A DNA stretch of 50,429 nucleotides. It comes from a virus. Shown here piece by piece: positions 2,486 through 45,079 of the stretch (position 1 is its first letter; every line of letters begins with the position of its first letter). Location: IMG/VR virus record IMGVR_UViG_3300028607_001326, positions 1 through 50,429 of that record, one strand, 5' to 3'. A program made the translations under genes and the position numbers. The notes under the pieces were generated by a model. That model was not told the origin of the DNA and searched no databases. It was given only the letters and a program-made list of their open reading frames with translations.

Positions 2486-3178
2486 ATGGCATTTAAACAA
2501 TCACCGTTCCCTATGGTTAGTGGAACAAAAGGACATTCTTCAGCACTTAAGAGAACTTGGAAGGAAGCTTATGAAATTTCTCAAAAAAAGGAAGGAAGTA
2601 GATACAAGGGTATGAGTGAGGAAGCTTATATAGCTGAAGCTAAAAGACAATCTGCCAGTTATAAGAAAACTGGTAAATGGGATGTGAAATCTAAGGAAAC
2701 ATATCAACCTAAAAAAGAAGATGATAAAGGGCCCGATTTGGTAGAAGATGTGGCAAGTGAAGTTACAGCCGTTGAAACACCTACTGCAAAAACTAAGTAT
2801 CAAATAAGACAAGAAAAACATAAAGGCAAAAGAGCGGCTATGGATAAAGGCACACCTGGCGGTACAGAAATTACCAGGGCAGAGCAAGCTGATATTAAAG
2901 TTAAAAAATTAACTTCTAAACAAGAGACTGCAGTTGCAGAAGGAAAAACTAAAAAAGCTGCAAGACTTGCAAAAAGAGTATCAAAAAGAAAAATTAAAGC
3001 TGAAAAATTAACTGCAAAAGCGGAAGCTAGAGAAAGAGGTGGTGGAGTAATTTCTGTAGCAGATAGAAAAGCTATAAAAACTCAAAAATTAAAATCAAAA
3101 CTAGCAACAGTAGACCCTGAGAGTAGAAAAGGAAAGAGGATAGCTAAAAGAGTTAAGAAACGTGAAGGTGAGGTTTGA
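2486..3178 (+). CDS. Very basic SPF/GHSSALK-motif protein with internal repeat
   Basis: A 230-residue, strongly Lys/Arg-rich protein. The N terminus has SPFP (residues 6-9) and GHSSALK (16-22), related to the tag in neighbouring genes. The C-terminal half contains two diverged copies of a unit of about 48 residues: a GG-containing lead-in, KLxSK, and then an AKRVxKR basic block. High charge and repeats suggest nucleic-acid binding, for example an internal DNA-associated virion protein; this is inference. Its last 17 bases overlap the next gene. Confidence 0.6.
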   Translation: MAFKQSPFPMVSGTKGHSSALKRTWKEAYEISQKKEGSRYKGMSEEAYIAEAKRQSASYKKTGKWDVKSKETYQPKKEDDKGPDLVEDVASEVTAVETPTAKTKYQIRQEKHKGKRAAMDKGTPGGTEITRAEQADIKVKKLTSKQETAVAEGKTKKAARLAKRVSKRKIKAEKLTAKAEARERGGGVISVADRKAIKTQKLKSKLATVDPESRKGKRIAKRVKKREGEV

Positions 3179-4069: not shown

Positions 4070-5665
4070 ATGGAATACAATCTACCTAGCGAAATCGTCA
4101 AAGATTTAAACTTTGGCGACGACGCTAAAAAAAGAATAATAAAAGGAGTAGAGAAACTTGCTAAAGCAGTATCATCTACTTTAGGGGCTTCAGGTAAATG
4201 CGTAATTTACGAAGATGCTCTAGGTAAACCGGTAATAACAAAAGACGGTGTAACAGTAGCCGAATCTGTTGTCTTATTTGACCCGGTTGAAAACATAGGG
4301 GCAACCTTAATTAAGGAATCCGCGAGAAATACAGTTAGAGAAGCTGGTGATGGTACGACTACAGCTATAGTCCTTGCTGAGTCATTAATAAAAGAAGTTA
4401 ATCGAAATGGGAAAAAAGCATCGATTAGAGAAATTAAAGAAGGTATTAACTCAGCTTTGGCAAAAGTCAATGAATACCTTGAAGATAACGCTATACAAGT
4501 TACAGATGATATGCTGGAATCTGTTAGCACTATCAGTTGCAACAACGATATTGATCTTGGAAAAATTATCGCGGAAGCGTACACGAAGGTAGGAAAGGAT
4601 GGGGTAGTATTAATGGAGGAATCAGAGACAGAAGAAACTTATGTCGATGTAGTTGATGGTATACAAATGGACGTTAGTCTCACGTCTCCGCATTTTGTAA
4701 CAGATACAGACAAACAGCGCGCAGTTCTAGAAGATCCACTAATTCTAATCGTTGCATCGGAAATCCCTAATATAAGAAAAATACAAAAAATCCTTGAATT
4801 TGTTATAAAAAACAAAAAATCCCTTTTAATAGTGGCTCCAGTGGATCAACAAGTGAAAGCTGCACTACTAATGAACAAAGTTAAGGGCAATATTAAGGTG
4901 AATATTATAGATTTACCTGGATTTGGGCCTACAAAAGAAGATGCTACTAAAGATTTAGCGTTTTTAACAGGAGCAAAGGTAATAAATGAAGAACTTGGCG
5001 ATGATTTAGACCTAATTGACGTAGATTGCTTAGGTAAAGCCGAAAAAGCCGTTACAGACAACAAAAATACAGTTATCACTACATATGATATAGGTGAAGA
5101 TCTTGAAGGAAGAATAGAAGAGGTTAAAAATATCATTAAAAACGAGAAAAACGATTTTATAAAGAAAAAACAAGAGGATAGATTGGCAATGCTATCTGGT
5201 TCTGTTGGTATAATCAGAGTAGGTGCAGATTCTAAGGTAGAACTAAAAGAAAAGAAAGATAGAGCAGAAGATGCTATATATGCTACAAAAGCAGCACTTA
5301 AAGAAGGAATAGTATCAGGAGGAGGTGTGGCACTACTCAACGCATCTCAAAAAATTATTGGTAAAACAGTGGGTGAAAAGATATTATTAAAAGCTATACA
5401 AGCCCCTTTTCATGTAATATTAGAAAATGCGGGTATTGACTATCTTGATTATACAGATCTTAATATGTCTAATGAATGGTTTGACGATATAGAAGGAGAA
5501 GGTATAGATGTGATAACTGGAGATAGAGTTAATATGATTAAATCTGGTATCATAGATCCATTATTAGTTACCAAAACAGCATTGAAAAACGCTGTAAGTG
5601 TAGTAAATACTATTATATCAGCTGATTGTGTAATTTCAAATGTAAGAATGAATGAAAGCAATTAA
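4070..5665 (+). CDS. groEL: Chaperonin GroEL (phage type)
   Basis: A 531-residue group I chaperonin subunit, expected to form a ring that folds proteins with ATP and a GroES-type lid. Nucleotide-site motifs are present: ITKDGVTVA with D59 (equivalent of E. coli D52), GDGTTT at 93-98 (D94, equivalent of D87), the EDAIYATKAA segment followed by SGGGVALL, and GIIDP (equivalent of D495). The apical domain is recognisable (SPHFVTD, then APVDQQV, then LPGFGP). It lacks the GGM-rich C-terminal tail of cellular GroEL and is slightly shorter. It overlaps a GroES-like gene by 14 bases. Phage chaperonins usually serve capsid or other virion protein folding; the client here is unknown. Confidence 0.95.
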   Translation: MEYNLPSEIVKDLNFGDDAKKRIIKGVEKLAKAVSSTLGASGKCVIYEDALGKPVITKDGVTVAESVVLFDPVENIGATLIKESARNTVREAGDGTTTAIVLAESLIKEVNRNGKKASIREIKEGINSALAKVNEYLEDNAIQVTDDMLESVSTISCNNDIDLGKIIAEAYTKVGKDGVVLMEESETEETYVDVVDGIQMDVSLTSPHFVTDTDKQRAVLEDPLILIVASEIPNIRKIQKILEFVIKNKKSLLIVAPVDQQVKAALLMNKVKGNIKVNIIDLPGFGPTKEDATKDLAFLTGAKVINEELGDDLDLIDVDCLGKAEKAVTDNKNTVITTYDIGEDLEGRIEEVKNIIKNEKNDFIKKKQEDRLAMLSGSVGIIRVGADSKVELKEKKDRAEDAIYATKAALKEGIVSGGGVALLNASQKIIGKTVGEKILLKAIQAPFHVILENAGIDYLDYTDLNMSNEWFDDIEGEGIDVITGDRVNMIKSGIIDPLLVTKTALKNAVSVVNTIISADCVISNVRMNESN

Positions 5666-22448: not shown

Positions 22449-25400
22449 ATGCCAGAGATTAAAAATAATTTTACCGGAGGTAAAATGAATAAGGATCTCG
22501 ATGAGAGAATTATTTCAAATGGACAATATAGACATGCTATGAATATACAGGTGTCAACTTCAGAAGGTTCTGATGTTGGCGCTTTACAAAATATATTGGG
22601 TAATTCAAAAATATCATCTGGGTTTTCGTTTCCAAGTGGTGCTACTTGTGTAGGTTCTATTTCTGATGAAAAAAATGATATTTTATATTGGTTTATCACA
22701 AGCGTTACAGGTGATTATATATTAAGATATTCTGATGCTAATAGTATAGAAATAGTTTTTGCAGATATAAAAAAAGATTGTTTAATGTTTACTGAAAAAA
22801 TTATAACAGGAATAAATGTTATTGATGACATGTTATTATGGACAGATAACGAAAACGAACCTAGAAAAATAAATATACAACGTTCTTTAAATGGTACAAC
22901 TCAATCTGGTCTTGTACATACAAAACTCGTAAATGAAGATTTAGGTATATCACTATCTGGTATAATAATAGATATTGAAGAAAAACATATTACTGTTATA
23001 AAAAAATCTCCTCAAAACCCCTTAAATTTAGAAACTTTCACAGGTCGTGATACATTTTCAACATATAATGGTATAATGACTATCGTACCAGACCCAGGGT
23101 ATGCTACAAACAATTCTTCATTTATAGCTGATTATAATAGTCTATATGATTTCTCATCTTTACAAGTTGGTGAAACTTTTCAAGTATTGATGGAAACAAA
23201 TATTACTGGTAGCGCTTCTTTTACTTTACAATGGAATATAGGAGACAAAGTTGTTTTAAAAGAATTCGACGATAGTGGTTCTCCGCCTCCACTACCTATT
23301 AATGATTATAGAATAAGAGGTGTAATAACAAGCTGGATAGACACTTATTCAAGTAATCCTTGTGATGTCCCGGGAGCTAACGGTATAGATAATGCCACTT
23401 CTGGGCAAGAATGTAATAGATTTACAGCAGATTCAAACGCTGCGGGTTATAACCCGACAGCTCTTTGGCCCACAAATTTCCCAGGCACAGCTCACGTTCA
23501 AATCCAAATAACAGCGATAGAAGGTAATCCCCCTAGCATTGGTGGCAACAACACTTTAAATTACGCTATAGATTTGTTTGACGAAACAGAGAAACTGTTT
23601 GAATTTAGATTCCCTAGATTTTCCTACAGATACAAATATGAAGACGGTGAGTATTCTTGTTTTGCTCCTTGGTCTGAAGTAGTATTTATTCCTGGATCTT
23701 ATGATCATCATCCAAAAAAAGGTTTTAATCTTGGTATGACAAATAGATTGACCTCTGTAAATGTACAAAACTTTGTGCCAAGCGATATTCCAGATGACGT
23801 TGTTGAAGTTGATATCTTATATAAAGAAGATGCCTCTCCAAATGTTTATACTGTAGAAACTGTAAGACCAAAAGATAATATACTACAAGGACAAGCTACT
23901 AATAATTGGCAAAATAATAGTTATAGTATAACGTCAGAAACTATACACGCTGTTGTACCTTCAAATCAAATATTACGCCCATGGGATAATGTACCTAAAA
24001 AAGCATTAGCACAAGATATTACGGGAAATAGAGTTGTTTATGCAAACTACTGGCAAAATTATGATTTAAAAGCTGGAACATCAACAAATAATTATTATCC
24101 AGATTTTAGACATGTTATAGAGCAATTTCAAACAGTGCCAACAAACGCTATGAAATCTGTAAAATCATTAAGAGAATATCAATTAGGTGTAGTGTTTATT
24201 GATGGTTATGGTAGAGAAACACCTGTAATAACAAGCCCAACAGGCACATTTAAATTAGATAAATCATACGCAAAATCTCACAATAGAATAAAGGTGGGAT
24301 TTAATGGAATTGATTTTCCACATAACATGTCTTATATGAAGTTTTATATAAAAGAAACTTCTGGTGAGTATTATAACATGGCTATGGATAGGTATTATGA
24401 TGCTGAAGATGGTAATGTTTGGTTAGCATTTCCTTCATCAGATAGAAATAAAGTTGATATCGACACGTTTTTAATATTAAAAAAAGCAACAGATTCTAAT
24501 GAGGTTATACTAGAACCAGCTAGGTTTAAAATATTAGCTATAGAAAATTTTGCACCGGATTATGTAAAAACTAATAAAATATTAATAGAAGATAGACAAC
24601 ACGCTATAGGTGGAGCTGGTTTAGCTGATATTTTTGGTACTAGTATGACCAACGTTCCAAGTGTAGGTGGTGATTATTTTGAAATGAATTATGAACCGTT
24701 TTTCATGAGTAGTGGAGCGAATATGCATAACATTACAGATGGCAAGTTATATGTTGAATTTTCAGTGTCAGAGCAAGATGAGGTTTCCGCTAGATATAGA
24801 ATAACAGAAATAGTCTGTAACTACGATTCTGATTTAAGTAATCTTTCAAGCGCAAAATATAACGTTGCAATAGATGGGGTGTTTGGAGATGATGTTAATT
24901 TCATATCAGATGATACTAGTGGGCTAAATTCTACAAAAATACAAGATGGTGCGCAAGTAAGGATTTATAAATATGCTGTAGAAAATAAACCACAATTTGA
25001 TGGTAGATTTTTTGTGAAAATTTTAAATGATGACATTTTTAGAAAATATATTAAAAAAATGTTTAGAGATGATGACGCAGATTACAAGGTTGTAGCCGCT
25101 CAAAAAGTAAGTTATTTAACAAATGACTTTCACGATGGTGGTGGTGCGAGCCCTGCTAATCCTTTACTGTCTGTGTTTGATCTTCCTAATGTTACTCAAG
25201 CAACTGGATGGCCTGGTTGGAATACGAGTTATATGGTTGGAAATCAAGCGAGATATAATTTTTATGCTCCTAGCAAACATCATTTTCAAGCTTATTTACA
25301 AGATTTTAAGTTTGCAGATGATGGTGGAATAAATCAAACTTATACTAATGCTTTTAGTGGGGGCCTTCTAAATGTCCAGGACATGCTGGAAAGTCATGAA

Positions 25401-27803
25401 GAATATGGGTGGTGGATGTATTATCCAGGTTATCATCCACAGGTGCAAACTGGAGAGAATTTGAATATAGACGCACCAAAAACCAATTGGTTTGTAGACA
25501 ATGGCGCCTATCATGCCACAAGATATGATACAAATTTTAAATCGGAGCCAGATTCGGGTCCTTCAGGTTTTGGATATACTGGTTTTGATACGCCATTTGG
25601 AGCTGGTACTTATGGTAACAAAGGAGAGTTAACAGGATTAGGAAATGGTATTGCCGATAATCCTGGTAATAATTATTGGAAAATGGACTTGTCTTTTGGT
25701 GGTATTTGGTCTCGTGATTGGAATTGGAATGATGATACTGGGCTTGAATACTATGATGACATGGAAAACTTTTGGGTTATTGGACAGACAGGAGGAAATG
25801 AAAAGCATGTTGATGAGGGTGCTTTTGCTGGGCAATTATTACCTGGAACTAAAGTTAGGTGGAGAGAAGACCCAGAGAAAACAATATACACAATCTCTTC
25901 TGGTGTTGCCGAGAAACAAAGGATTAGATATTTCAGTTATAGTGGTAATCAATCACCAATAGGATATAACTCCAACAACCCGCCACCGTGGGGTTTGATT
26001 AATCTTGGTAGTTGGACTGGTATTTTAGATTCTCCTGATGGTTGGCCTCAGGGTGGATATCATCAAAATATAGGTTTTACTAATCCAGCTAATTTTACAA
26101 AAACTTGGGATTTAAAATTCGAGCCATCCTTACATTGGAATCCAGTAGAATCTGGTATCATAACAAATGGACATCATATAACTTTACAAACACGAAGTGG
26201 TACTGCAAGTGACATATCGAACTTTGCCACAGGTGGCACCGCTAATCCAAACAATGCTTACTTTAAATTCGATAGTGTTGTTGGACCGTGTTCGGTTACT
26301 GGTACAGACCAGCAAATAGCACCGGGCATGATGATCACCTCCTATAATAACACTCCTGTAACTTGGCCAACCGTAGAACCGAACGTTAGTGCCGCTAATA
26401 GTATAGCGTTTGCTGGTGGTGGTCCAATTGTAAAGAAAATAGAATACCAACAAGCAAGTGGAGTATATCACGTTTGGCTTACTGGTTATAAAAAGATTTT
26501 AGAAGCATCTGATTTAACTTTTTCTACAGCAATACAAAACGCTCAAAATATAGTATTTCGACAACCAGGTATGAATACGTATAATGAAACTTTCATAGAA
26601 AATTACCATTGGATGGATCCAAATCTTAGTGCAGATGATAGACGTGTAGAATCTGTAGGATATACTCTTGAGATAATAGAAGCGGTGAATCCCTTAGAGG
26701 TATTACCAGATGACCCGGCTATATGGGAAACAGAACCAAAAGAAACAACGGATTTAAATATATATTACGAAGCAAGTTCAGCTATTCCGTTATTGTTAAA
26801 TAGGGAAACTATAGCGACAGCGATACCTATTGGTTCAAAAATTCTTGGTTCTGGAAGTGGTTATGTAGGATTGCTTTGGTTATCTACTGATGGATCTACC
26901 GTTAACATTACGAGCGCTACAGATTTAACGTTAGACCCAACAGAAATAGTTGTGAATAATGCGAGTGAGATTTTTAATATTGGAGCTGTTGGTGCAGCTT
27001 CATCAGATCCTCTTGATGTAAATGATTGGTTGGCTTTAAATCCTCAACAAGTTAAAATAACAACTCCTAGTGGATTAGAATTTATAACCAATATAATAGC
27101 GTGTGATGTTGATGATATTACAATTACTATTGATGATACAATGCCTTTTTATAGTAATGATTTTTCTTTAACATGGCATAATTGTTTTTCATTTGGTAAT
27201 GGTGTAGAGTCAAATAGAATTAGAGATAATTTTAATTTACCTTATATTTTAAATGGCGTAAAAGCATCAACAACATTCGCCGAACAATATAAAGAGGAAC
27301 ATAGAAAATATGGATTAATATATTCAGGCATATATAATTCTACTAGCGGTGTAAACAACTTAAACCAATTTATACAAGCTGAAAGAATTACAAAAGATAT
27401 AAACCCAGTGTATGGTAGTATACAGAAATTACATACAAGAGATACGGACTTAGTTACGCTTTGTGAAGATAAAGTTTTAAAAATACTAGCAAATAAAGAC
27501 GCTTTATTTAATGCTGATGGAAACACTCAATTAACGGCAACCGCGAACGTACTTGGACAAACAATTCCCTTTGTCGGAGAGTATGGTATATCTAAAAATC
27601 CAGAATCTTTTGCGTCGGAAGCTTATAGAGCTTACTTTACCGATAAAGTTAGAGGAGCCGTTATGAGATTATCAATGGATGGTTTAACACCTATATCGTC
27701 TCATGGTATGAAAAACTGGTTTAAAGATAATCTAAGATTAGGTGATAAAATTATTGGTAGTTATGATGATAAAAAAGGTGAATATAATATTACAATAAAT
27801 TAA
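22449..27803 (+). CDS. Tail nozzle / tail stabilization-like protein
   Basis: A 1784-residue protein, far larger than P22 gp10 or T7 gp12. The N terminus (IKNNFTGGKMNKDLDERIIS, then NGQYRHAMNIQVST and VGALQNILGN) is a typical opening of the podovirus nozzle protein, and the C terminus (AYFTDKVRGAVMRLSMDGLTP, then SSHGMKNWF) is also typical. Propeller-like blocks around FLYWF-type strands near residue 80 (DILYWFITSV) support this. Large aromatic Gly/Asn-rich insertions lie between about 850 and 1450 (WPGWNTSY, GYHPQVQTG, NYYWKM-like stretches). It probably forms the tail tube's lower part and holds the fibres. Confidence 0.75.
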   Translation: MPEIKNNFTGGKMNKDLDERIISNGQYRHAMNIQVSTSEGSDVGALQNILGNSKISSGFSFPSGATCVGSISDEKNDILYWFITSVTGDYILRYSDANSIEIVFADIKKDCLMFTEKIITGINVIDDMLLWTDNENEPRKINIQRSLNGTTQSGLVHTKLVNEDLGISLSGIIIDIEEKHITVIKKSPQNPLNLETFTGRDTFSTYNGIMTIVPDPGYATNNSSFIADYNSLYDFSSLQVGETFQVLMETNITGSASFTLQWNIGDKVVLKEFDDSGSPPPLPINDYRIRGVITSWIDTYSSNPCDVPGANGIDNATSGQECNRFTADSNAAGYNPTALWPTNFPGTAHVQIQITAIEGNPPSIGGNNTLNYAIDLFDETEKLFEFRFPRFSYRYKYEDGEYSCFAPWSEVVFIPGSYDHHPKKGFNLGMTNRLTSVNVQNFVPSDIPDDVVEVDILYKEDASPNVYTVETVRPKDNILQGQATNNWQNNSYSITSETIHAVVPSNQILRPWDNVPKKALAQDITGNRVVYANYWQNYDLKAGTSTNNYYPDFRHVIEQFQTVPTNAMKSVKSLREYQLGVVFIDGYGRETPVITSPTGTFKLDKSYAKSHNRIKVGFNGIDFPHNMSYMKFYIKETSGEYYNMAMDRYYDAEDGNVWLAFPSSDRNKVDIDTFLILKKATDSNEVILEPARFKILAIENFAPDYVKTNKILIEDRQHAIGGAGLADIFGTSMTNVPSVGGDYFEMNYEPFFMSSGANMHNITDGKLYVEFSVSEQDEVSARYRITEIVCNYDSDLSNLSSAKYNVAIDGVFGDDVNFISDDTSGLNSTKIQDGAQVRIYKYAVENKPQFDGRFFVKILNDDIFRKYIKKMFRDDDADYKVVAAQKVSYLTNDFHDGGGASPANPLLSVFDLPNVTQATGWPGWNTSYMVGNQARYNFYAPSKHHFQAYLQDFKFADDGGINQTYTNAFSGGLLNVQDMLESHEEYGWWMYYPGYHPQVQTGENLNIDAPKTNWFVDNGAYHATRYDTNFKSEPDSGPSGFGYTGFDTPFGAGTYGNKGELTGLGNGIADNPGNNYWKMDLSFGGIWSRDWNWNDDTGLEYYDDMENFWVIGQTGGNEKHVDEGAFAGQLLPGTKVRWREDPEKTIYTISSGVAEKQRIRYFSYSGNQSPIGYNSNNPPPWGLINLGSWTGILDSPDGWPQGGYHQNIGFTNPANFTKTWDLKFEPSLHWNPVESGIITNGHHITLQTRSGTASDISNFATGGTANPNNAYFKFDSVVGPCSVTGTDQQIAPGMMITSYNNTPVTWPTVEPNVSAANSIAFAGGGPIVKKIEYQQASGVYHVWLTGYKKILEASDLTFSTAIQNAQNIVFRQPGMNTYNETFIENYHWMDPNLSADDRRVESVGYTLEIIEAVNPLEVLPDDPAIWETEPKETTDLNIYYEASSAIPLLLNRETIATAIPIGSKILGSGSGYVGLLWLSTDGSTVNITSATDLTLDPTEIVVNNASEIFNIGAVGAASSDPLDVNDWLALNPQQVKITTPSGLEFITNIIACDVDDITITIDDTMPFYSNDFSLTWHNCFSFGNGVESNRIRDNFNLPYILNGVKASTTFAEQYKEEHRKYGLIYSGIYNSTSGVNNLNQFIQAERITKDINPVYGSIQKLHTRDTDLVTLCEDKVLKILANKDALFNADGNTQLTATANVLGQTIPFVGEYGISKNPESFASEAYRAYFTDKVRGAVMRLSMDGLTPISSHGMKNWFKDNLRLGDKIIGSYDDKKGEYNITIN

Positions 27804-27812
27804 ATTGTTAAG

Positions 27813-30800
27813 ATGGCATATACATTAACTTTTAGAGAGGACGTTAAAGGATGGGTGAGTTTTAAATCATTCATTTACGAAAGTGCTATTAGTATGGCTA
27901 GCAACTATTATTCTTTTAATAGTGGTGAACTATATATTCACCACGATGAAACTGTTGATAGAAATACGTTTTATAACCAACCATTAGTACCTTCTAGTTT
28001 TAAAGTTATTATGAACAGCTTTCCAGATGCTATTAAGTCTTTTAATGCGTTGAATTATGAGGGTTCGCAAACAAAAGTTTCAGAATTTATAGAATATCAA
28101 GTTCCAAATGATCCAACTTGGTACACAGACAGAGATTATTATAACTTAGCCGATAAAGATGGCTGGTATGTTAGTAACATAAAAACAGATTTACAAAACG
28201 GTGTTATCCCTGAATTTATAAATAAAGAAGGTAAATGGTTTAATTATATAAAAGGTATTAATATAACAACTACTATTGATGGACAAGTAACGGGTCACTT
28301 AGATCCAAGTGAATTTTCTTTTCAAGGGTTAGGTTATGTTGATGGTGTTAATATTTTTGTAGGTGTTCTTGGGTGTATGGATTCAAACTTTATACAGTTC
28401 AATCCACTAGCTAATATAGACGATGGTAGTTGTACAACATTAAATGTTTTAGGTTGTATGAATTCAACAGCAACAAACTATAATTCATTAGCAAATGTTA
28501 ATGATGGATCTTGTGTTATACCTGGTTGTATGGATTCTAACATGTCAAACTTTAATCCTTTAGCCACTGTAAATGATGGTAGTTGTATTCCTTGGATTTA
28601 TGGGTGTTTGAATGATATCGCGTTTAATTATGATGCGACCGCTAATGCTCCTTGTGATGCTTCTAGCTCAGGATGTTTTCCTCCTGGTTGTACTGGTCCT
28701 GCAGCTTGTATGGGAACGCCCGGGTGTGATGGTTTATGTTGTACAGGCGTCACTCTTGGATGTATCGATCCAACAGCATTTAATTATAATTCAAATGCAA
28801 ATGTAAGCGACGGAAGTTGTGAATACGATGGTTGTACAAACTGTTCTGCATATAATTACTGTCCAACGTGCGCACTTGATTGCGATGGAAATAGTGCCCA
28901 AACAGCTTTCTGGTGTTGTTGTATGACAAGCGGTTGTATGGATTCTAATTCGGTTAATTATGATACAAATAATTGCGCAGATTGTAATAACGTCGTTAAT
29001 GGTAACGATACAACTTGTTGTGTTACTTGCGTTTGGGGTTGTACGACTCCAGCAGCAACGAACTATAACTCAAGTGCTACTTGTAATGATGGTAGTTGTA
29101 CGGGTGTTCCTGGTTGTACCGATCCAATAGCAAATAATTATGATCCATTAGCTACTAATAATAATGGTACTTGTGAATATTGTGCAAGTCCACCAACCTG
29201 GTCTTTATCAAACGAAACAGATACCACTATAGATGTAGATATTAGCACTCAAAACACTACATCCCCAAATAATGCTTTGGTATATACAGCAACAATTGAA
29301 TACAGAATAACAGGTACCTCTACTTGGACGGTTGATACAACCACTGCTACAGCTGGTCCAGGAGCCCCAACATATACTATAACAGGTCTTACATCAAGTA
29401 CTGATTATGATGTTCAAGTTACCGGTCATTGTTCTAATACAGACTATGATGCTGGTACCAATAGCACTGCAACTTTAGCAATTCCAATTTTAGGGTGTAC
29501 TGAACCTAGTGCGTGTAATTTTAACACAAGCGCTAACACTAATGATGGTAGTTGCGATTATATACTTTGTGCTGGATGTATGGATTCCAATGCAAATAAT
29601 TTTAACAGCGGTGATGCTAACACTTGGAATGCAACTGGTGTTTGCAGAGATGCTAATGGAAATCCTAGTGCATGCACAATAGCGTGTAACAATAGTAGTC
29701 CAGGTACTGGATGTTGTACTTACACTATACTAGGTTGTATGGATGCGACTACAGGTTATAACGCAGATGTTAACGGAGATGCGCAAGGAGCAACCGGTGG
29801 TCCAGGCTCTTATCCATGTCTATTTGCAAACAACGCATTTGTAGACCCATGGTCTACTGATACCAACTGTATAGCCGTTGGGGGAGCTCAAATAGGATAT
29901 TTAGCTTCAAATTATGATCCAGCAGTAACCGCTTCAGGAACTGGAGGTAATTTAAGTTCAGGATTACAAGGACTAGCAAATAATGGTTGTACTTATGTAA
30001 TGGGTTGTACCGATATTGGCACTTATCCTTCAAACGGTACGTATGATTATACGTCAATTGTACCAAGTAATATGAGAGAGGTAAATGGAGGACATTATCC
30101 TACAGCAGGTGGATCTCTTACGCCTGGGCAAGCGGCATTGAATTATAATTGTTCCACTGCTTCAAATCCTAATTCTAATGTGTCGTGTAATGATAATGTT
30201 GGGGTTGATGATGGTAGTTGTAGACCTTTAATTCGTGGATGTGTTGATACTATGGCTCCACAAGATGTAAGCTTTGTAGATGGTGAAACATATACTTTAG
30301 CTAATTGGAATTTAGGTAGAGGATGTCCAGTTCCTGGAGCTGGTGATTGGCCAGTTGCACCTTTTATGGATATACCTGTACCGAATTTCCCTATTGGTGA
30401 CGAATGGGTGGATGCTAATTACCATGATCAAGGTTGTTGTATAAGAGATCAAGAAGGGTGTATAGATAACTCAACAGTAACAATAAAACAAGGAATGGTT
30501 GGTGATATAAATTACTTTATATCTTCTATGACTGTTCTTGGTCAATTTATGCCTGAAAATGATGGAGTTCAAATTCAAACTTCACCAACTGGTACAGCTT
30601 GGCATGAAACCACAAACGAACTTTACGAACGATTGTTACCAAATGGCGCGTGGACAGAGGGTTCACAATGGGGGGCTTATAATTATATGGCGTATTCCAT
30701 GACCACTTTTAACTCAGGTTGGGTGGATTCAAATAACAATCCAATCACTTATGATTTATTTGATATTATGCACCCTTGGTCACCTGTAAATATGGATGCG

Positions 30801-31274
30801 TGTTGTTTCTCGGCTGGATGCCTACATCCTATGGCTTATAATTTTGATTTAATAGGTTATCAATATGAGGGTTGGGATCCTTCAATCGGTGGCCCGATGG
30901 GGTTTCCATCGCAATTAAACCCGTACTATGATATAAACGAAAATCAACACCGATCATGTGCAGCTTGTAATGGTACGCCGGCAGAGGAGAGTTTTAGAGA
31001 TTATCCTATAGGTACTGGTGGTGATCCATCAACATGGGATGGTACTTTAGGTTTTAATGCCAGTGCGTTGGGGATGGTGACAGGTCCTTATTCATCGTGG
31101 AGTGGTGCACAATCTAGTGAGGAAACTTCGTGTTGTTGTTGGTCTATTGGTTGCACGGATTCTAATGCTACGAATTGGAGTGGTGGCGCACAATGTGATG
31201 ATGGGAGTTGTTGTGGAGGAGCAGGAATGCCAGCGTGTTCTGGAACAACAGGCACAGGTGGTGGTGGTGCATAA
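27813..31274 (+). CDS. Cys-rich repeat tail adhesin with FN3 domain
   Basis: A 1153-residue protein. Residues 1-185 (FREDVKGWVSFKSFI, YESAISMASNYYSFN, NQPLVPSSFKVIMNS) are a nozzle-associated domain that follows directly from the 22449 protein. From residue 187 come repeats of GC-[MTIL]-D/N-x-x-A-x-N-[YF]...[DNS]-[DN]-G-[ST]-C, with at least nine DGSC-type ends down to about residue 1135. A fibronectin-III-like domain lies at about 455-555 (PPTWSLSNETDTTIDVDIST, then YTITGLTSSTDYDVQV). Repeats of this type are common in secreted Bacteroidota proteins, so it is probably a disulfide-rich receptor-binding or fibre protein. Confidence 0.75.
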   Translation: MAYTLTFREDVKGWVSFKSFIYESAISMASNYYSFNSGELYIHHDETVDRNTFYNQPLVPSSFKVIMNSFPDAIKSFNALNYEGSQTKVSEFIEYQVPNDPTWYTDRDYYNLADKDGWYVSNIKTDLQNGVIPEFINKEGKWFNYIKGINITTTIDGQVTGHLDPSEFSFQGLGYVDGVNIFVGVLGCMDSNFIQFNPLANIDDGSCTTLNVLGCMNSTATNYNSLANVNDGSCVIPGCMDSNMSNFNPLATVNDGSCIPWIYGCLNDIAFNYDATANAPCDASSSGCFPPGCTGPAACMGTPGCDGLCCTGVTLGCIDPTAFNYNSNANVSDGSCEYDGCTNCSAYNYCPTCALDCDGNSAQTAFWCCCMTSGCMDSNSVNYDTNNCADCNNVVNGNDTTCCVTCVWGCTTPAATNYNSSATCNDGSCTGVPGCTDPIANNYDPLATNNNGTCEYCASPPTWSLSNETDTTIDVDISTQNTTSPNNALVYTATIEYRITGTSTWTVDTTTATAGPGAPTYTITGLTSSTDYDVQVTGHCSNTDYDAGTNSTATLAIPILGCTEPSACNFNTSANTNDGSCDYILCAGCMDSNANNFNSGDANTWNATGVCRDANGNPSACTIACNNSSPGTGCCTYTILGCMDATTGYNADVNGDAQGATGGPGSYPCLFANNAFVDPWSTDTNCIAVGGAQIGYLASNYDPAVTASGTGGNLSSGLQGLANNGCTYVMGCTDIGTYPSNGTYDYTSIVPSNMREVNGGHYPTAGGSLTPGQAALNYNCSTASNPNSNVSCNDNVGVDDGSCRPLIRGCVDTMAPQDVSFVDGETYTLANWNLGRGCPVPGAGDWPVAPFMDIPVPNFPIGDEWVDANYHDQGCCIRDQEGCIDNSTVTIKQGMVGDINYFISSMTVLGQFMPENDGVQIQTSPTGTAWHETTNELYERLLPNGAWTEGSQWGAYNYMAYSMTTFNSGWVDSNNNPITYDLFDIMHPWSPVNMDACCFSAGCLHPMAYNFDLIGYQYEGWDPSIGGPMGFPSQLNPYYDINENQHRSCAACNGTPAEESFRDYPIGTGGDPSTWDGTLGFNASALGMVTGPYSSWSGAQSSEETSCCCWSIGCTDSNATNWSGGAQCDDGSCCGGAGMPACSGTTGTGGGGA

Positions 31275-35692: not shown

Positions 35693-38600
35693 ATGTTTGA
35701 ATACGACGGAGATGAGTATACTTTGGAAGAATTACAATTTTCTGCAGAAGATCAAAGTTTAGACTTCACTACATTCATGAAAAGAATGACAAATCTTGGA
35801 ATGGTGGAGAAGCAAACAGATTTCACGATACAAGATCCAGATGGAGAGTCAGACGATGGTACTTTAGCGTTAATAAAGAAGATAGCGACGGCTGAGGAAA
35901 AAGGTGGTGGTAAAAAAGAAGTTGAAACTGAATTAGAAAGTTTATTACAAATTCCTAATTATTATGATGAAGATCGTTTAACTCCAGATCCTAACTTTGG
36001 ATTTTTTCCAGATGACAATGGAGAGACAGATCCTTTTATGCAACCAACTGATCAGATATCTAATCAAGTTGCTGAATTTTATACTATTCAAGAAAACGAT
36101 TATAAAAAAGACAAACATAGATTACACCAAATAGGTAGTGAAGAAGCTCAAGTTTATTTTGAAGAGAACAACCCGCTTAAACTATCACAACCAGAGTTAG
36201 ACGCTAGATCTAAAGAAAATGGCGGTTTAGGAGATGATATATGGTATGCTAATCCTGATATTTTTGGTGATCCTAAACCTGAAATTACAAGAGACACATA
36301 TAATATAGAGCGTGATGAAAGTTATTATGATCAATCTGAAGAGCAATTATCTGCGCGTGAAGAACAAATGCTTGCTGAAACTAAGAAAGTTAATGGGTTT
36401 GTTTTTCAAAGAAACAATAATGATCCACTACAAGTAGATGCTGAAATATCGGAATATTCTCCAAATTTATTATCTGTATATGATCAAGATATACAAGATT
36501 TAATTAAAAAGGGAGATCAAGAGGCGGCAGATAAAATGGCTGAAGATAGAGATTACAAAAAACTTTATGATGAAAATGGGAAGTTTACAGATTATATACC
36601 TATAGATATGGAAAATGAGGCTATTGATAAATCTTCTTCTAATTTAGATGATTTAATGGCCGAACAAAGAAATGCTTACGCTAGATTTATTGCTTCTCAA
36701 AAACTTGCAGCAAGAAATGCTACTGGAGGTAATTGGAAAGGAATGGCTAAGTATGGAGTTGGTGTTACTGATCATATAAGTGGTTTTGCAAGCTCCGATA
36801 GACAAGCGTTATATAATGTAGGTCTAGGAAGACGTGTTTCAATTAATGCAAACGCAAATAAACTTATAGAAAAAGTAAATGCGTTACCGGGTAATTCACC
36901 CATAACCCAAGAACATAATAGAAATTTAGATAAATTAAAAACTATAACTAGGGCTATTGAACTAAATATGAATCCTGCTTTGTTACCAGAAGAAGCTCAT
37001 TGGAAAGAAATAATAGACAATAGAACTGCAGATGTTATAAGCAACGATGAGGCGTTAGAAATATTTAATGACTTTACAGAAACAAACTTAGGTTTAAAAC
37101 TAAAAACAGGTATTGGTGAAGGTAGTGGTACTTTTGGTGAAGAGCGTACTTCTACAGTTAGAGGTATTGCAGAAGGTGGTAGAAATTTTGTAGATCATTT
37201 TGCGGAATTAGCAGCCGCTCTTTATATTACTAAAAGATTACCAATAGGTGTTTTAAAAAGAGGTAAAGGGGTTGTAACACTTGAGACTGGTTTAAAAACG
37301 GGTCTTAATAAACTTGGAACAGGTTTAAAGAGTCTTAACCAAAGTAGAACATACGGGCGATTTGTGGATATTAGTTTAGGTGGTGTTAAGGAATTAGTTG
37401 TTTTAGGTGGTGCAGATTTAGTGTCTAGTGAATTATTTGGTACAGAAGGTATGGTATATAATACAAAAACTAAAGAGTTTCACCCTGAGTTTGCTATAGC
37501 TTTAGGTGTTGGGGGTGTTGCTGCAAAAGAAATAACCAATAAAATTTTAAGAACAGAATCTCTTTTTACACGTGTGCTAGGTAGATTAAACAAAACAGCA
37601 GAACCAACTCTTTTATCTTCCATTGGTGGTGCTGGAACACAAGCCGCAACAGGAACATTGGTATTAAAGTTTGGGGAAATAGCTTCGGAACTACTAAGCG
37701 ATGATCAGCAATATAGATTAATGGCAGATGGTAATTATGAATCTATAGACCAGTGGAAAGAAATTCTTGGTTGGAGAAGTATGATAGAAACCTTTATTGG
37801 TATGACTATGTTAGGTGGTAAGGCTACTGCGACTAATATGTATAGAGGTATGCGTGGTAGTATCGCTAGTTTAAAGGGATCTACTGTTAGAGGTAATGAT
37901 GCCGCTACAGGTCTTGGTATTAAAGTAAATTCTACTAATAGCACTATAAAAACAACCAGTGATACAAAAATAAGGGATATAAATAAAGATAAAACCTTAA
38001 GTGAAAGTGAAAAATTAGAAAAAATAAAACAAGTAAAAACTTGGTCTGAGGATTTACATTGGGAAAACGAAAGAAGGTATGCTATTAAATTAGCTAAAAA
38101 AGAAGGTAAGAAGGACGAAGCTTTAGAAAACACATACGCTCTCGGTAATAAAATATTACAAAAAGAAAAATTTACACCGGAAGAAATAGAACGTTTACAT
38201 AGTTTAAAAGATTATGAATATGATATAATGAAATCTAGAATGGGGTTTTCTAAAAACTCTGCAAATGGAAGAAAGTTAGATGAGATGCGTGATACTTATA
38301 AAACTATAGTGGATCAATTAGATGCTCCAGGCGCGGCTAGGATATTTGGAGAAGAAAGAGACAACGTTATAAGACAGATAGTAAATGGGCATGAAATACA
38401 ATCTGAAATTGGTAAGTTAAAAGATATAATAAAAAATCACCCAGAAACAGAGGGAATTAACAATGTTAAGTTAGATAAGTTGCAATTAAAGTTAGATGCT
38501 ATAAACGAAAAAATAGGAACTTCTTACGATATATATAACACTAAGGTTAAGGAGATACAGAGAACATACGGCGCATTAATGAAAACTTATGCTAAAAAAT

Positions 38601-41600
38601 TAGAAGCTGATGATAGATATAAAATTGTAAATCACGAAACTTATTCTAAAGAATTAGCTAAAAGATATAATGTAGATATTAAAGAAGCTAGAGAAATGGC
38701 TAATGAAAGTGAGGGGTTTTATGATAGATACAAAGATCTAATATTTATAAACAAAGAAGTAGCTGACGCCAATAAGAATCCTAGCACTGAGATGCATGAG
38801 GTTATACATCGTATATTAAGAAATTCTTTCAAAAATGCCGATGGTGTAATGACGAAAGAAGGTATAAACGCTATAGATGCCTTTAGAGATATAGTTGAAA
38901 AGAATGATCCTAAAGCAAGTAGAATTATAGAAGGTCTAATAGAAACTAATTATAAATATGAATACGATAAAGAAGGTAATAGAAAAGAAGTGCCTAAAGA
39001 ACATTATTATGAAGAGTATTTAAATACTTATTTTACTGCTTTAACTCGTGAACAAATAAAATATACTCCTAGTGTTGGTGAAACATTATCAGAGTTTGTT
39101 TTACCATTCGTAAGAAAAGTATATCCTCAATATCAAAGAGGTAAAAAGACAGCACCTGAAACAGGTAGGGATCTTTACAACATGATGAGGGGATTCCATA
39201 GAACCGCTTCAAAAGGAGAAGTTTTAGAATCAGCTGTGGAACTTGGTCTTAAAGGAGAAAGAATGGATAAAGGTGAAGGGATTATACAAGAATCAAGAGA
39301 AAGAGAGATAAAAGAATTAGGCTATAAAAAACCAACTGTAAAAGGAGAGCTTGGGAAAAGACTTAATAAAGCTGAATGGGATAGAAGCGTTGGTGAAGTT
39401 TATTTAAAATTATTTGGGGAAAGGGGTCAACCAGGATTATTAGATGGAGTGATATTAAAAGGCTTGAAAGGAAGCGATATATTTGGTAAACCTAAAAGTA
39501 AATTTATAGAGGACGTTAAAATACAAATACAAAAACCACTATTTGATTTTGATCCTACAATAAACGATAACCTATCTGGTTATATGAACTTCTATATTAG
39601 TAAAAGAAAAGTAGCAATATTAGATAAATACGAGAAAGAGAAATTTCAAAAACCAATAGAGGGTGAAGGCGCTCCAATATTAAAAGCGGAGCCTAGTGGT
39701 CCAAAAGAAGTTGTTGGTAAACAGCTTATGATAGCAGATAAGTTTGGTGATGCTGGTATAGTTTTAAACGAAAAAATACATAGCATGGTTGAATCTGGAA
39801 AGATCGACCCTAAAGGAAAATCGTTTAAAAATTTAAGAAAACTTGTTACTAAAGATGTGGCTAAACTATTTATTGGTGAAGCCGATGCTGTACAAAGATA
39901 TATAAAGGATGGTCTTTCTAAAGAGGAAGCTGAGATAAAAGCTGCAGAAGAATTTGTTTATGTAGATGACGGTAGTGCTTTTTGGAAATCTCCAAAAGGT
40001 AAAAAATTATTAGGAACTAGTATAGCTGATTCTATAGAAAAGAAATTATTAGAAGACGCCAATTTAAATAAGCAAGATATAAAGCTTATACAAATGAAAA
40101 TGAATAAAATGGGAGCTAGCCCGTTTATAAATATAGTTTTACCTGAGGGCCATACTAATCTCCTAGCAAAAAAGAAAACCACTTGGATTCCAAGGGTTGT
40201 AAAAAATGAGTTTTATAATAAAAGTTCTAAAAGAGTAGGTAATGATTATCCTTGGTACAAAAAACCTAATATTACTGATACTCAAATGTATGATTTTGTG
40301 GGTATAACAGAAAGAGGTAATCCTAACTTATATAAAAAAGATAGCAACACTAGTATAAGGATAAAAGACATGTTGATGTTAACTGAGCGAATGTTTGTTA
40401 ACCAGGGAACTAGACAAAAACTAGTGGAAGATGGAAAAATACCATTATCTGATATTATTGCATTAGGTGAGGGTAAACCGCTATTAGCATTTTCTAAAGA
40501 CTTAAGAGAGCAAATTAAAAAAGACCCAGAAAAGGGAGTACATATAATAACTAAATTACAACAGCAAGCAGAAAGTATATTGTCTAAAACAGGTAACAAC
40601 TATAAAGCATCATTTAACAATATATTTGCCGGGGAAATAGAAAGAGGTTATTTAGATAGAAAAGTAATAGAAGGTATAGCTAAGGATTGGCAAGTTATAC
40701 ATGATAGATATTCTAGAAAACCTGAGAAAGATGTTATATTAAAAGATTTTTCTGTTGAGGAAATAGTTACAGAGCAATTAGTATACGATGCTTTAAACCC
40801 ACGACAGTACTACAAGACAATAGTTGAGGGTAGAACGGGGCAAAAAGAACTTAAATCTATAACAGACCCTGAATTCGCTAGTATAGTTAGAACAAATGTT
40901 TTAAGACCGTTAGCAGAACATTTTGGACCAGAATTTTCAGAAGCTTTCTTATATCCAGGTGTTAATGCTCCAGCTAAAATAGGTAAAGGTGAAGTTTTTT
41001 TTACTGATATAAACACGTTTGAAAAAACTCCAGGTTGGAAACCTACTAAGTTAAATAAAAAAGGGAAAAAGGTAACACAAGACAATAGAAAAGGTGTTAC
41101 TACTGGAGAGGTTGATAGTAGAATGGTATTAAAAACTAAGAAAGGTGAAATTGGTTCTCATACTAAATTACCTGCTATAGCTACTAAAGGAAAGTTATCG
41201 TCTGAGCAGATGAAGACTGTTAAGAAACACAAGGATCAAACTATAAAATCTCAACAAGAACATAATCAAGCGTTTAGAAAAGTTGTTGGAAAACTTAAAG
41301 ACATGTACGATAGTAAGGACGTGTCTGTTGACGAGGTTGTTGCAGTTTTAGAGTTAATGAACGCGAATCCTAAAGGATTAACTAGAACGTCTGCTATATT
41401 AGATTTTTTACCAAGCGGAAAATTTGAAGGATTAGCGACTTTAGAACATATGACACCTGCTTTAAAAGTAAATTTAAGAGCGTTAAATTACATATTATCA
41501 GGAAAAGAAACTCAACCAAGTATAGATTTTAATAATACAATGGATAACTATAGAGTTTCTTATATGCCTGAGAAATATGATATTGCATTAAATAAGTTTT

Positions 41601-44600
41601 ACAAATCCGGAATACCTATATATTCAAGACCAAACATGTCTCCGCTGGTTAGAATATTCAATCCTGAGACATATGATTTAATGGCGGGTTTAAAATTTGA
41701 ACAGTTATCTACTGGTAGCATTATTGGTCGTGACATGGTTGTTAACAAGAGACTTTGGAATAAAATAAACAAAAATAAAAAAACTGCTCTTGGGAATTTA
41801 TACAATAAAGAAATGAGTCAACATGAGGTTAATCAAAACCTAAATACTGTTTCTAAAGTTGTATTGCTACATTCTAAATCTAATCCTAAAAAAGGTATGA
41901 GCGCTTGGGATTTTGATGATACGCTAGCTAGAACAAAATCTGGCGTTAGATATACTTTACCAAATCCAAGTGGTAAACCCGCTCCCGGAAGAAAAGTTAT
42001 ATTTATGGCTGGTGGTCCTGGTTCAGGTAAGTCAACTGTAATTAAAGGACTAGGTTTAGAAAAACAAGGTTTCAAGGTTGTTAATCAAGATATATCACTT
42101 CAATGGTTAGCGAAAAATTCTGGACTACCTACAGACATGAGAGACTTTACTCCAGAACAAGCAAGTAAGTGGAGTTCACTTGGATGGGATGCTAGAATGA
42201 TAGCTAAGCATAAACAAAGTAAATTTCAAGGCAAGGGCGATGGAATTATTATTGACGGAACTGGTAATAGTTTGAATGTTATGAAAAACCACGTTCAAGA
42301 ATTTAAGAATAAGGGTTACGATGTTCAAATGGTGTTTGTTGAAACGTCTCTTGAAACAGCTTTGCAAAGAAATCGCGCTAGAAAAGAACGTTCATTAAGA
42401 GACAAGATAGTAATAAAAACTCATGAATCGGTACAGAATAATAAAGAGGCGTTTAAAGAATTGTTTGGTGATAGTTTTGCGGAAGTTAACACAGACAACT
42501 TAAAACAAGCGGATGCTATGCCCCTTGATTTAGCTACTAAGATGAACAAGTTTACTAAAGGTTATATCAAAGGCAGATTAGACGCTGGAGAATATGCTCA
42601 TAAAGGCATGGAGCTAGAAGCTCAAGGTGCTAAATTTGATTTTACAGAATTTGATTATGTAAAAGAGGGTGAGAGAGGGCCTTTGTTTGGTAAAGCTATG
42701 GAAAGAGCTAAAAAGTTTGGTACTAAAGATCAATTTGTAATAACAGCTAGACCTCACGCTGCTAAAATGCCTATATTTAGATTTTTAGATGCACAAGGTT
42801 TAAAAATACCTTTTGAAAACATTATAACATTAGAGAGTAGCAGCGCTGAGGCAAAAGCCATGTTTGTGCTTGAGAAGTTTAAGGAGGGATATAATGATAT
42901 ATATTTCGCTGATGATGCGATGCAGAACATTAAGGCTGTTAAAGAGGTTTTAGATCAATTAGATATTAAATCTAAAGTTCAGCAAGCTATTCAACATAGT
43001 AGAGAAAAATTAAGTAGCGATTTTAATAAAATAATAGAGGAAGTTAAAGGCGTTAGAAAAGAAATTACTTTTGATGTCGCTAAAGCCCGTATAAGCGGTA
43101 GTGGTAAAGGTAAATATGCTTGGGTTTTACCTCCATCAGCATCTGATTTTGAATTATTAACTTCTTATACTATGGCTGGTAAAGGTAAAAAGGGACAGGA
43201 GCACCAAGAATGGTGGAATAAAAATTTATTTAAACCATTTGCAAAAGGTGTAAATAATATAAACACGTCTAAACAAGCTATAACAAACGACTATTTAGCC
43301 TTAAGAAAAATAATGCCCGGAGCTAAGAATAGATTACGAAAAAAAGTACCTGGTACGAAATTTACTTATGATACTGCTATGAGAGTACATAGATGGACTG
43401 AGGCTGGTTATGAGGTTCCAGGATTATCAAAAGCAGATGCGAAAACATTAAATAACGCTATAAAAAATGATGGAGAATTATTAGCTTTTTCTGAACAGTT
43501 AGGTTTAATATCAAAAATGAAAGAAGGTTGGGTTAAACCTACAGAGCATTGGTTGGCGGAAAACATAACAGCAGATCTTGAAGCTGTAAACAAGAGAGTT
43601 AGAAGAAAAGAATTCCTTGCTGAATGGATAGAAAACAAAAATATTATATTTGATAAAAACAACTTAAATAAGATAGAAGCTCTATACGGAGAAAGACATA
43701 GAGAAGCTATAGAAGATATGTTATGGCGTATGGAGAACGGTACTAACAGACACGCTGGTATGAATAAGATAACAAATCAATTTATGAATTGGCAAAACAG
43801 AGCTGTTGGTGCTATTATGAATTTTAATATGCGATCTGCCTCTTTACAGTTATTGTCTACGGTGAATTATATAAACTGGGGAGAGAACAATCCAATAGCA
43901 GCAGCTAAAGCTTTTGCTAATCAACCACAATATTGGAAAGATTTTGCAACATTATGGAATTCTGATATGTTAGTTCAAAGACGAGCAGGTTTGAAGATGA
44001 ATGTTAATGAAGCTGAACTTGCTAGTCATGTTCATGGTGCTAATAATAAAGCAACCGCAGCACTCGATTGGTTTCTTAAAAAAGGTTTTATACCAACAAA
44101 AACGGCTGATAGTTTTGCTATTGCCTCTGGTGGCGCTACATATTATCGTAATCGAATTAAGACGTATGAAAAGCAAGGTCTAGAAACTAAAAAAGCTGAA
44201 AAAAAAGCATTTCTAGATTTTCAAGAGATTGCAGAAAAAACTCAACAGTCAGCTAGACCAGATTTAATATCACAAGAACAAGCATCTCCACTTGGTAGAA
44301 TTATATTACCATTTGCAAACACTCCTTTACAATATAATCGTTTAGCTAAAAAAGAAGTGTTAGATATAGCCAACGGTAGATTTGATGGAGCTTTTGGTGA
44401 TAACTCTCTAACGTCCAAAATAGGTAAGATAGTTTATTATACAGCTGTACAAAACTTTATATTTTCATCGCTACAAGCTGGAATGTTCTCTTTAATATTT
44501 GACGACCAAGAAGAAGATTATATAACTAAGAAACAGGATAGAATTGCTAATAACATGTCAAACTCTCTGTTGCGCGGTATGGGTGTTTACGGGGCTTCTA

Positions 44601-45079
44601 TTGCTGCTTTAAAAGATGGTGTGTTAAGATTTCTACATGAGAATGAAAAAGATTATAGAGCGGACTACGCGAACGTTGCGATTGACATGCTAAACATATC
44701 TCCAACTATTGGTTCTAAAGTTAGAAAGTTGAAGAGTGCTGGAGATTCTTATAAATGGAATAAAGATATAATTCCGGAAATGGGATTTGATATAGAAAAC
44801 CCATTGTTTTATGCTATTGGTAACACAACGTCTGCTATTACAAATGTTCCTTTAGACAGGTTGGTAACTAAGGTAAACAATGTTAAAGGAGCATTAGACA
44901 CTGAGAATAATGCGTGGCAACGTGTAGCTTTAATGATGGGTTGGAACAGGTGGGATTTGGGTATGGAAAAACCTAAAAGTATTTTAGAAGTTAAAGAAAA
45001 AGTTAAAGAGAAGAAAAAGAAAAAGAAAAAGAAGAAGAAATTTAAAACATTTAAAACATTTAAAATGAAAACGCTATAA
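35693..45079 (+). CDS. Giant internal/ejection protein with HEVIH and nested HAD-kinase domains
   Basis: A 3128-residue protein starting MFEYDGDEYTLEELQ. Hydrophobic stretches occur near residues 490-520, 560-610 and 640-670. HEVIH at 1035-1039 is a HExxH-type zinc site in a helix. A HAD phosphatase site is split: motif I DFDDT (2073-2077), a P-loop kinase insert (GGPGSGKS at 2107-2114, IIIDGTG at 2186-2192, RNRAR at 2226-2230, zeta-toxin/PNK-like), then HAD T2351 (VITAR) and DD 2407-2408. The C terminus is Gln/Lys-rich and ends with a poly-Lys run. It probably enters the host with the DNA, as inferred from the position and size of podovirus ejection proteins. Confidence 0.75.
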   Translation: MFEYDGDEYTLEELQFSAEDQSLDFTTFMKRMTNLGMVEKQTDFTIQDPDGESDDGTLALIKKIATAEEKGGGKKEVETELESLLQIPNYYDEDRLTPDPNFGFFPDDNGETDPFMQPTDQISNQVAEFYTIQENDYKKDKHRLHQIGSEEAQVYFEENNPLKLSQPELDARSKENGGLGDDIWYANPDIFGDPKPEITRDTYNIERDESYYDQSEEQLSAREEQMLAETKKVNGFVFQRNNNDPLQVDAEISEYSPNLLSVYDQDIQDLIKKGDQEAADKMAEDRDYKKLYDENGKFTDYIPIDMENEAIDKSSSNLDDLMAEQRNAYARFIASQKLAARNATGGNWKGMAKYGVGVTDHISGFASSDRQALYNVGLGRRVSINANANKLIEKVNALPGNSPITQEHNRNLDKLKTITRAIELNMNPALLPEEAHWKEIIDNRTADVISNDEALEIFNDFTETNLGLKLKTGIGEGSGTFGEERTSTVRGIAEGGRNFVDHFAELAAALYITKRLPIGVLKRGKGVVTLETGLKTGLNKLGTGLKSLNQSRTYGRFVDISLGGVKELVVLGGADLVSSELFGTEGMVYNTKTKEFHPEFAIALGVGGVAAKEITNKILRTESLFTRVLGRLNKTAEPTLLSSIGGAGTQAATGTLVLKFGEIASELLSDDQQYRLMADGNYESIDQWKEILGWRSMIETFIGMTMLGGKATATNMYRGMRGSIASLKGSTVRGNDAATGLGIKVNSTNSTIKTTSDTKIRDINKDKTLSESEKLEKIKQVKTWSEDLHWENERRYAIKLAKKEGKKDEALENTYALGNKILQKEKFTPEEIERLHSLKDYEYDIMKSRMGFSKNSANGRKLDEMRDTYKTIVDQLDAPGAARIFGEERDNVIRQIVNGHEIQSEIGKLKDIIKNHPETEGINNVKLDKLQLKLDAINEKIGTSYDIYNTKVKEIQRTYGALMKTYAKKLEADDRYKIVNHETYSKELAKRYNVDIKEAREMANESEGFYDRYKDLIFINKEVADANKNPSTEMHEVIHRILRNSFKNADGVMTKEGINAIDAFRDIVEKNDPKASRIIEGLIETNYKYEYDKEGNRKEVPKEHYYEEYLNTYFTALTREQIKYTPSVGETLSEFVLPFVRKVYPQYQRGKKTAPETGRDLYNMMRGFHRTASKGEVLESAVELGLKGERMDKGEGIIQESREREIKELGYKKPTVKGELGKRLNKAEWDRSVGEVYLKLFGERGQPGLLDGVILKGLKGSDIFGKPKSKFIEDVKIQIQKPLFDFDPTINDNLSGYMNFYISKRKVAILDKYEKEKFQKPIEGEGAPILKAEPSGPKEVVGKQLMIADKFGDAGIVLNEKIHSMVESGKIDPKGKSFKNLRKLVTKDVAKLFIGEADAVQRYIKDGLSKEEAEIKAAEEFVYVDDGSAFWKSPKGKKLLGTSIADSIEKKLLEDANLNKQDIKLIQMKMNKMGASPFINIVLPEGHTNLLAKKKTTWIPRVVKNEFYNKSSKRVGNDYPWYKKPNITDTQMYDFVGITERGNPNLYKKDSNTSIRIKDMLMLTERMFVNQGTRQKLVEDGKIPLSDIIALGEGKPLLAFSKDLREQIKKDPEKGVHIITKLQQQAESILSKTGNNYKASFNNIFAGEIERGYLDRKVIEGIAKDWQVIHDRYSRKPEKDVILKDFSVEEIVTEQLVYDALNPRQYYKTIVEGRTGQKELKSITDPEFASIVRTNVLRPLAEHFGPEFSEAFLYPGVNAPAKIGKGEVFFTDINTFEKTPGWKPTKLNKKGKKVTQDNRKGVTTGEVDSRMVLKTKKGEIGSHTKLPAIATKGKLSSEQMKTVKKHKDQTIKSQQEHNQAFRKVVGKLKDMYDSKDVSVDEVVAVLELMNANPKGLTRTSAILDFLPSGKFEGLATLEHMTPALKVNLRALNYILSGKETQPSIDFNNTMDNYRVSYMPEKYDIALNKFYKSGIPIYSRPNMSPLVRIFNPETYDLMAGLKFEQLSTGSIIGRDMVVNKRLWNKINKNKKTALGNLYNKEMSQHEVNQNLNTVSKVVLLHSKSNPKKGMSAWDFDDTLARTKSGVRYTLPNPSGKPAPGRKVIFMAGGPGSGKSTVIKGLGLEKQGFKVVNQDISLQWLAKNSGLPTDMRDFTPEQASKWSSLGWDARMIAKHKQSKFQGKGDGIIIDGTGNSLNVMKNHVQEFKNKGYDVQMVFVETSLETALQRNRARKERSLRDKIVIKTHESVQNNKEAFKELFGDSFAEVNTDNLKQADAMPLDLATKMNKFTKGYIKGRLDAGEYAHKGMELEAQGAKFDFTEFDYVKEGERGPLFGKAMERAKKFGTKDQFVITARPHAAKMPIFRFLDAQGLKIPFENIITLESSSAEAKAMFVLEKFKEGYNDIYFADDAMQNIKAVKEVLDQLDIKSKVQQAIQHSREKLSSDFNKIIEEVKGVRKEITFDVAKARISGSGKGKYAWVLPPSASDFELLTSYTMAGKGKKGQEHQEWWNKNLFKPFAKGVNNINTSKQAITNDYLALRKIMPGAKNRLRKKVPGTKFTYDTAMRVHRWTEAGYEVPGLSKADAKTLNNAIKNDGELLAFSEQLGLISKMKEGWVKPTEHWLAENITADLEAVNKRVRRKEFLAEWIENKNIIFDKNNLNKIEALYGERHREAIEDMLWRMENGTNRHAGMNKITNQFMNWQNRAVGAIMNFNMRSASLQLLSTVNYINWGENNPIAAAKAFANQPQYWKDFATLWNSDMLVQRRAGLKMNVNEAELASHVHGANNKATAALDWFLKKGFIPTKTADSFAIASGGATYYRNRIKTYEKQGLETKKAEKKAFLDFQEIAEKTQQSARPDLISQEQASPLGRIILPFANTPLQYNRLAKKEVLDIANGRFDGAFGDNSLTSKIGKIVYYTAVQNFIFSSLQAGMFSLIFDDQEEDYITKKQDRIANNMSNSLLRGMGVYGASIAALKDGVLRFLHENEKDYRADYANVAIDMLNISPTIGSKVRKLKSAGDSYKWNKDIIPEMGFDIENPLFYAIGNTTSAITNVPLDRLVTKVNNVKGALDTENNAWQRVALMMGWNRWDLGMEKPKSILEVKEKVKEKKKKKKKKKKFKTFKTFKMKTL

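Follow-up and report, generated by a model that had tools for sequence, protein, structure and literature searches.

The window analyzed here, a 50,429-nucleotide stretch of DNA (positions 1 to 50,429 of record IMGVR_UViG_3300028607_001326), belongs to a marine bacterial virus whose TerL and portal proteins match those of phages of Flavobacterium, Cellulophaga, Tenacibaculum, and Maribacter. Positions 35693 to 45079 on the plus strand form one intact open reading frame without an internal stop, encoding a giant protein of 3,128 amino acids. The gene starts downstream of two muzzle-type genes on the same strand (22449 to 31274), one for a muzzle-like tail protein (22449 to 27803; crAss_MUZ, E = 1.8e-10) and one for a protein with a muzzle C-terminal-type domain (27813 to 31274; crAss_MUZ_C, E = 7.5e-7). 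In crAss001, muzzle and cargo proteins are parts of one virion module, and the cargo genes come after the muzzle (PMC10172136). The window also encodes a phage chaperonin of 531 amino acids (4070 to 5665) with a full-length match to Cpn60_TCP1 (E = 7.3e-53) and a 293-amino-acid protein (3162 to 4043) with RIO1/Kdo-type protein-kinase-like matches (E values of 7e-7 and 1.5e-5); in the related phage Panino, a GroES-type co-chaperonin gene adjoins the terminase.

The N-terminal 2,036 amino acids of the giant protein are similar in only 6 of 18 relatives, whereas a C-terminal core (43130 to 44980, plus strand) is shared by all 18 at 44 to 54% identity. This core remotely matches part of Gundel_1_74, a protein annotated as "structural protein" (hhalign, 96%); no HAD or kinase was found in the stretches examined from MW202828, Gundel_1, and Panino. 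Gene context and this remote homology make it probable that the giant protein resides in the virion and is ejected. A metallopeptidase-type HEVIH motif lies at amino acid 1035 (38795 to 38809), and as 77 of 83 homologous open reading frames contain an HExxH somewhere along their length, a zincin may belong to the conserved payload. The protein ends in a lysine-rich tail (44990 to 45079), where many homologues instead close with a brief Cys/His-rich sequence (C-x-RCK-x-CYYHD or CYAHQ) that may bind zinc.

All relatives examined have, alongside the conserved core, a HAD phosphatase domain, which in the window is split in two by a P-loop kinase (all features on the plus strand). The N-terminal HAD piece, comprising the motif I strand and the first flap strand (amino acids ~2067 to 2092; 41891 to 41968), was delimited from alignment to homologues that lack the kinase and from predicted strands, and it carries motif I, DFDDT (D2073 and D2075; 41909 to 41923). 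A kinase insert of 199 amino acids follows (41969 to 42565, with edges uncertain by a few residues), bearing a Walker A motif, GGPGSGKS, from amino acid 2107 (K2113; 42011 to 42034); the Asp of a VNQD motif, which by homology would be the general base (D2133; 42089 to 42091); a DGTG motif whose D, T, and G are invariant (D2188 and T2190; 42254 to 42265); and lid-type arginines in RNRARKER (R2226, R2230, and R2233; 42368 to 42391), assigned from conservation and alignment to T4 Pnkp. The HAD then resumes with a C-terminal piece running from the second flap strand to motif IV (42566 to 43009), defined by alignment to the kinase-free homologues and by structure prediction. It contains motif II, TAR (T2351, the T of TARP; 42743 to 42751); an invariant motif III lysine that aligns with K325 of A2 (K2388; 42854 to 42856); and motif IV, D2407-D2408 (42911 to 42916). 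The original prediction had placed DFDDT at 2073, GGPGSGKS at 2107, RNRAR at 2226, T2351, and DD at 2407-2408, all of which agree with the sequence; IIIDGTG is present as well, starting at amino acid 2185 rather than 2186.

We compared this locus with homologues from IMG/VR contigs and two genome bins. The IMG/VR scans, the last of which kept the best 80 of 271 relatives, together with a genome scan gave 97 usable loci including the window, representing 84 giant proteins with distinct HAD sequences. All 84 have the same HAD, with motifs I (DxDxT), II (T/S), III (K), and IV (DD) conserved in order. In 48 the kinase lies between motifs I and II (nested form) and in 36 it is absent (compact form), a ratio that is uninformative about abundance, given that the 271 relatives were cut to the 80 with the best scores. 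Motif I and the FDF motif are 242 amino acids apart at each of the 56 nested loci, as against 42 or 43 at each of the 41 compact loci; therefore, the kinase adds 199 to 200 amino acids everywhere. One further locus (L067), unclassed under a stricter pattern and not counted, nevertheless has a P-loop and the 242-residue spacing. Natural empty sites are provided by the compact members, L019 and L022 among them, in which the alignment runs continuously across the position of the kinase, so the two domains are not mere unrelated neighbors. Conservation across the 84 distinct homologues likewise rules out a chance motif match. The part of the protein beyond the HAD is longer than 1,100 amino acids in the nested members L040, L015, L011, and L012 compared with about 670 to 820 in others, which suggests further variable downstream insertions.

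Since the nested pair recurs in many related viruses and the insert-free HAD in others, the arrangement is genuine and maintained by selection, and we consider it very likely that the kinase is nested in the HAD with both sites kept. The insertion topology proposed in the original prediction is thus borne out. The nested pair is shared by 48 of 84 distinct sequences, and the refuting case named in that prediction, homologues in which the kinase is missing and the HAD residues vary, does not arise: the 36 sequences without a kinase keep the HAD residues. Because the HAD lacks the kinase in 36 homologues, the pairing is not obligatory. Motif I varies to DFDET, DFDYT, or DFDKT in some compact members and to DLDGT in one nested member. 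A large compact subclade (L044, L048, L064, L085, and relatives) has DFDET for DFDDT, or DFDYT in L085, and FVDDA for FADDA, and perhaps acts on a different class of substrate.

Structure prediction agrees with the alignments on where the kinase is inserted. Two flap-like strands are predicted for the compact form (E18-22 and E28-32); in the nested form, the predicted flap strands (E21-27 and E228-234) flank the entire kinase. The nested model has a mean pLDDT of 83 and a pTM of 0.61, and because of the latter value, the packing of the kinase on the HAD is uncertain. An insert in the HAD flap hairpin constitutes a C1 cap (PMC7822558, PMC3734299), and in the model the kinase occupies the flap-hairpin loop, i.e., the C1-cap position.

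The HAD halves of the window protein had no significant match in profile searches, a HAD profile retrieved nothing useful from PDB sequences, and a HAD-only tblastn search across 50,697 phage records gave no match. Compact homologues match PHROG 415, "polynucleotide kinase" (22 of 35 members; best E = 1.2e-6), and Pfam DUF2608 (30 of 35 members; best E = 6.6e-6), a HAD-type family. Of the HAD hallmarks of a Rossmannoid fold with squiggle and flap, a flap-like hairpin is predicted, and the compact model matches PDB folds weakly (E of 0.009 and above), HAD enzymes being among these. We rejected membership in the T4 HAD 3'-phosphatase group, as hhalign aligned the two profiles at motif I and nothing beyond.

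The kinase is, by profile and fold comparison, closest to polynucleotide kinase. It is recognized well above chance by Pfam AAA_33 (E = 1.3e-12), Zeta_toxin (2.5e-11), and the PHROG polynucleotide kinase family (3.3e-9), and hhalign aligns it to the T4 Pnkp kinase (96% over 133 columns) with the base Asp and the lid arginines in register; D2133 falls on the Asp of the VN/INRD motif of T4 Pnkp and on the base Asp of zeta toxin. In the PDB, Foldseek ranks Pnkp1 and T4 Pnkp highest, with alignments of ~350 columns, and gives a TM score of 0.70 by target length for a bacterial polynucleotide kinase. Kinase residues are kept in all 48 nested sequences, K2113, D2133, T2190, and R2226/R2230 being invariant. 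Three residues after the base Asp, all 48 have Leu where T4 Pnkp has Arg38, an important residue; Arg38 is not universal among polynucleotide kinases, however, because mouse PNKP has Gly at that position. The closest kinase relatives in GenBank phages (Melnitz, HTVC008M, and Atu_ph07; 31 to 43% identity) differ in being stand-alone P-loop kinases, and no flanking HAD halves were found in the gene products examined from these three phages.

Both domains are under purifying selection: the median dN/dS is about 0.20 in the kinase and about 0.15 in the HAD (428 pairs, which share ancestry, so the values are descriptive). A tree built from just the HAD pieces, without an outgroup, accounts for the nested state by one change (support 90/98), whereas a terminase tree covering 19 classed genomes requires five changes, at least three of which are forced by well-supported branches. 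It follows that the module either moved from one phage backbone to another or was gained and lost repeatedly on the backbone. Compact lineages are more diverse than nested ones, which fits insertion of the kinase into a compact ancestor, although the unrooted HAD tree leaves gain versus loss unfixed.

Our working model is that the virus would be a crassvirus-like podovirus akin to flavobacteria phages and the giant protein its polyvalent-type cargo (ejection) protein, with a small HAD phosphatase beside the conserved C-terminal core. In one lineage, a kinase of the polynucleotide-kinase type would have entered the flap-hairpin loop of the HAD, yielding a single kinase-phosphatase unit. Judging from the conserved motifs, both the kinase and the HAD are presumably catalytic. 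The pair would most likely process nucleic-acid ends in the newly infected cell, phosphorylating 5'-OH ends and removing 3'-phosphates, and sealing of the healed ends would be left to a ligase. An ATP-dependent DNA ligase is encoded in 8 of 14 related records, in nested and compact phages alike, with several of the remaining records being fragments. For a T4-type RNA ligase, PF09511 gave no match in related records, but the search controls were silent as well; an RNA ligase partner suggested by PF09414 was rejected, as its matches in 2 of 14 relatives coincide with the DNA ligase genes. Nucleic-acid ends are the best single reading of the substrate, but a tentative one that we rate somewhat short of even, and the account as a whole, a crassvirus-like cargo protein with a nested kinase-HAD and Pnkp-like end processing, is held with slightly more conviction, also below even.

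Alternatively, the pair could be a kinase-phosphatase switch whose target is a host protein or small metabolite instead of nucleic-acid ends, as the kinase profile also matches adenylate, shikimate, and L-seryl-tRNA(Sec) kinases, PFKFB2, itself a kinase-phosphatase, is among the fold matches, and the HAD falls in no named family. Against this, Pnkp enzymes give both the best fold matches at full length and the longest of the profile alignments, and we regard such a switch as unlikely. The original prediction had offered end healing or a zeta-toxin-like activity; the former is plausible and the latter disfavored. A zeta/PezT-like kinase would phosphorylate UDP-N-acetylglucosamine or a related sugar nucleotide and weaken the cell wall at entry, with the HAD acting separately or as a reversing phosphatase. 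The Zeta_toxin match noted above, PezT/zeta among the PDB matches, and the automatic naming of one family member as a UDP-N-acetylglucosamine kinase would agree with this, as would the shared P-loop kinase fold and the invariance in nested members of the equivalents of the zeta base Asp67 (D2133) and Thr118 (T2190). Zeta-like kinases are also known among polyvalent-protein payloads and in MuF fusions (PMC5512222). However, zeta-toxin Arg120, which contacts the UDP phosphates (PMC3062530), is replaced by Gly (31), Ala (13), or Asn (4) in all 48 nested sequences, and because this position is never Arg, a zeta-toxin (UNAG kinase) identity is improbable. Least probable of all is that the domains are retained chiefly for a structural or assembly role within the cargo protein, as the position of the HAD beside the conserved core throughout the relatives examined might suggest, since none of the distinct sequences has lost a HAD motif or a catalytic residue of the kinase it carries, and the Gly that follows the Walker A Lys in some nested members (GKG for GKS) is also found in adenylate kinases.

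Among known kinds, the nested kinase-in-HAD stands closest to Pnkp and to polyvalent phage proteins. T4 Pnkp (PseT) and bacterial Pnkp1 combine the same classes of enzyme, a 5'-kinase and a HAD 3'-phosphatase, and the Foldseek matches cover both domains. As the original prediction had pointed out for T4 Pnkp, however, the kinase there precedes the phosphatase, whereas here it lies inside the HAD; in addition, the HAD described here is unmatched to that of T4 Pnkp beyond motif I, the kinase has no Arg38 equivalent, and the pair is part of a 3,128-amino-acid protein. Mammalian PNKP also carries a HAD phosphatase and a kinase in one chain, with a VNRD-type base motif that aligns with VNQD, but its two domains are consecutive rather than nested. 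The polyvalent proteins of phages and conjugative elements are similarly very large and multidomain and combine a variable payload with a conserved part (PMC5512222); the word phosphatase does not appear in that paper's main text, and we found no nested HAD of this kind there. No description of a kinase nested in a HAD was found in the literature searched, which was mostly outside subscription journals. The family sequences are already public, because BFVD holds members under automatic names.

Here the flap of one enzyme has taken up a whole second enzyme of opposite chemistry, and the natural insert-free relatives make this insertion testable domain by domain. It is conceivable, if on balance doubtful, that the nested form represents a new HAD subtype, in which an entire polynucleotide-kinase-type enzyme serves as a C1 cap, couples both activities on one substrate, and is ejected to heal ends cut by host defenses at the start of infection. 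Should the protein indeed be ejected and work on nucleic-acid ends, it would constitute a pre-loaded repair or counter-defense function, delivered before phage gene expression.
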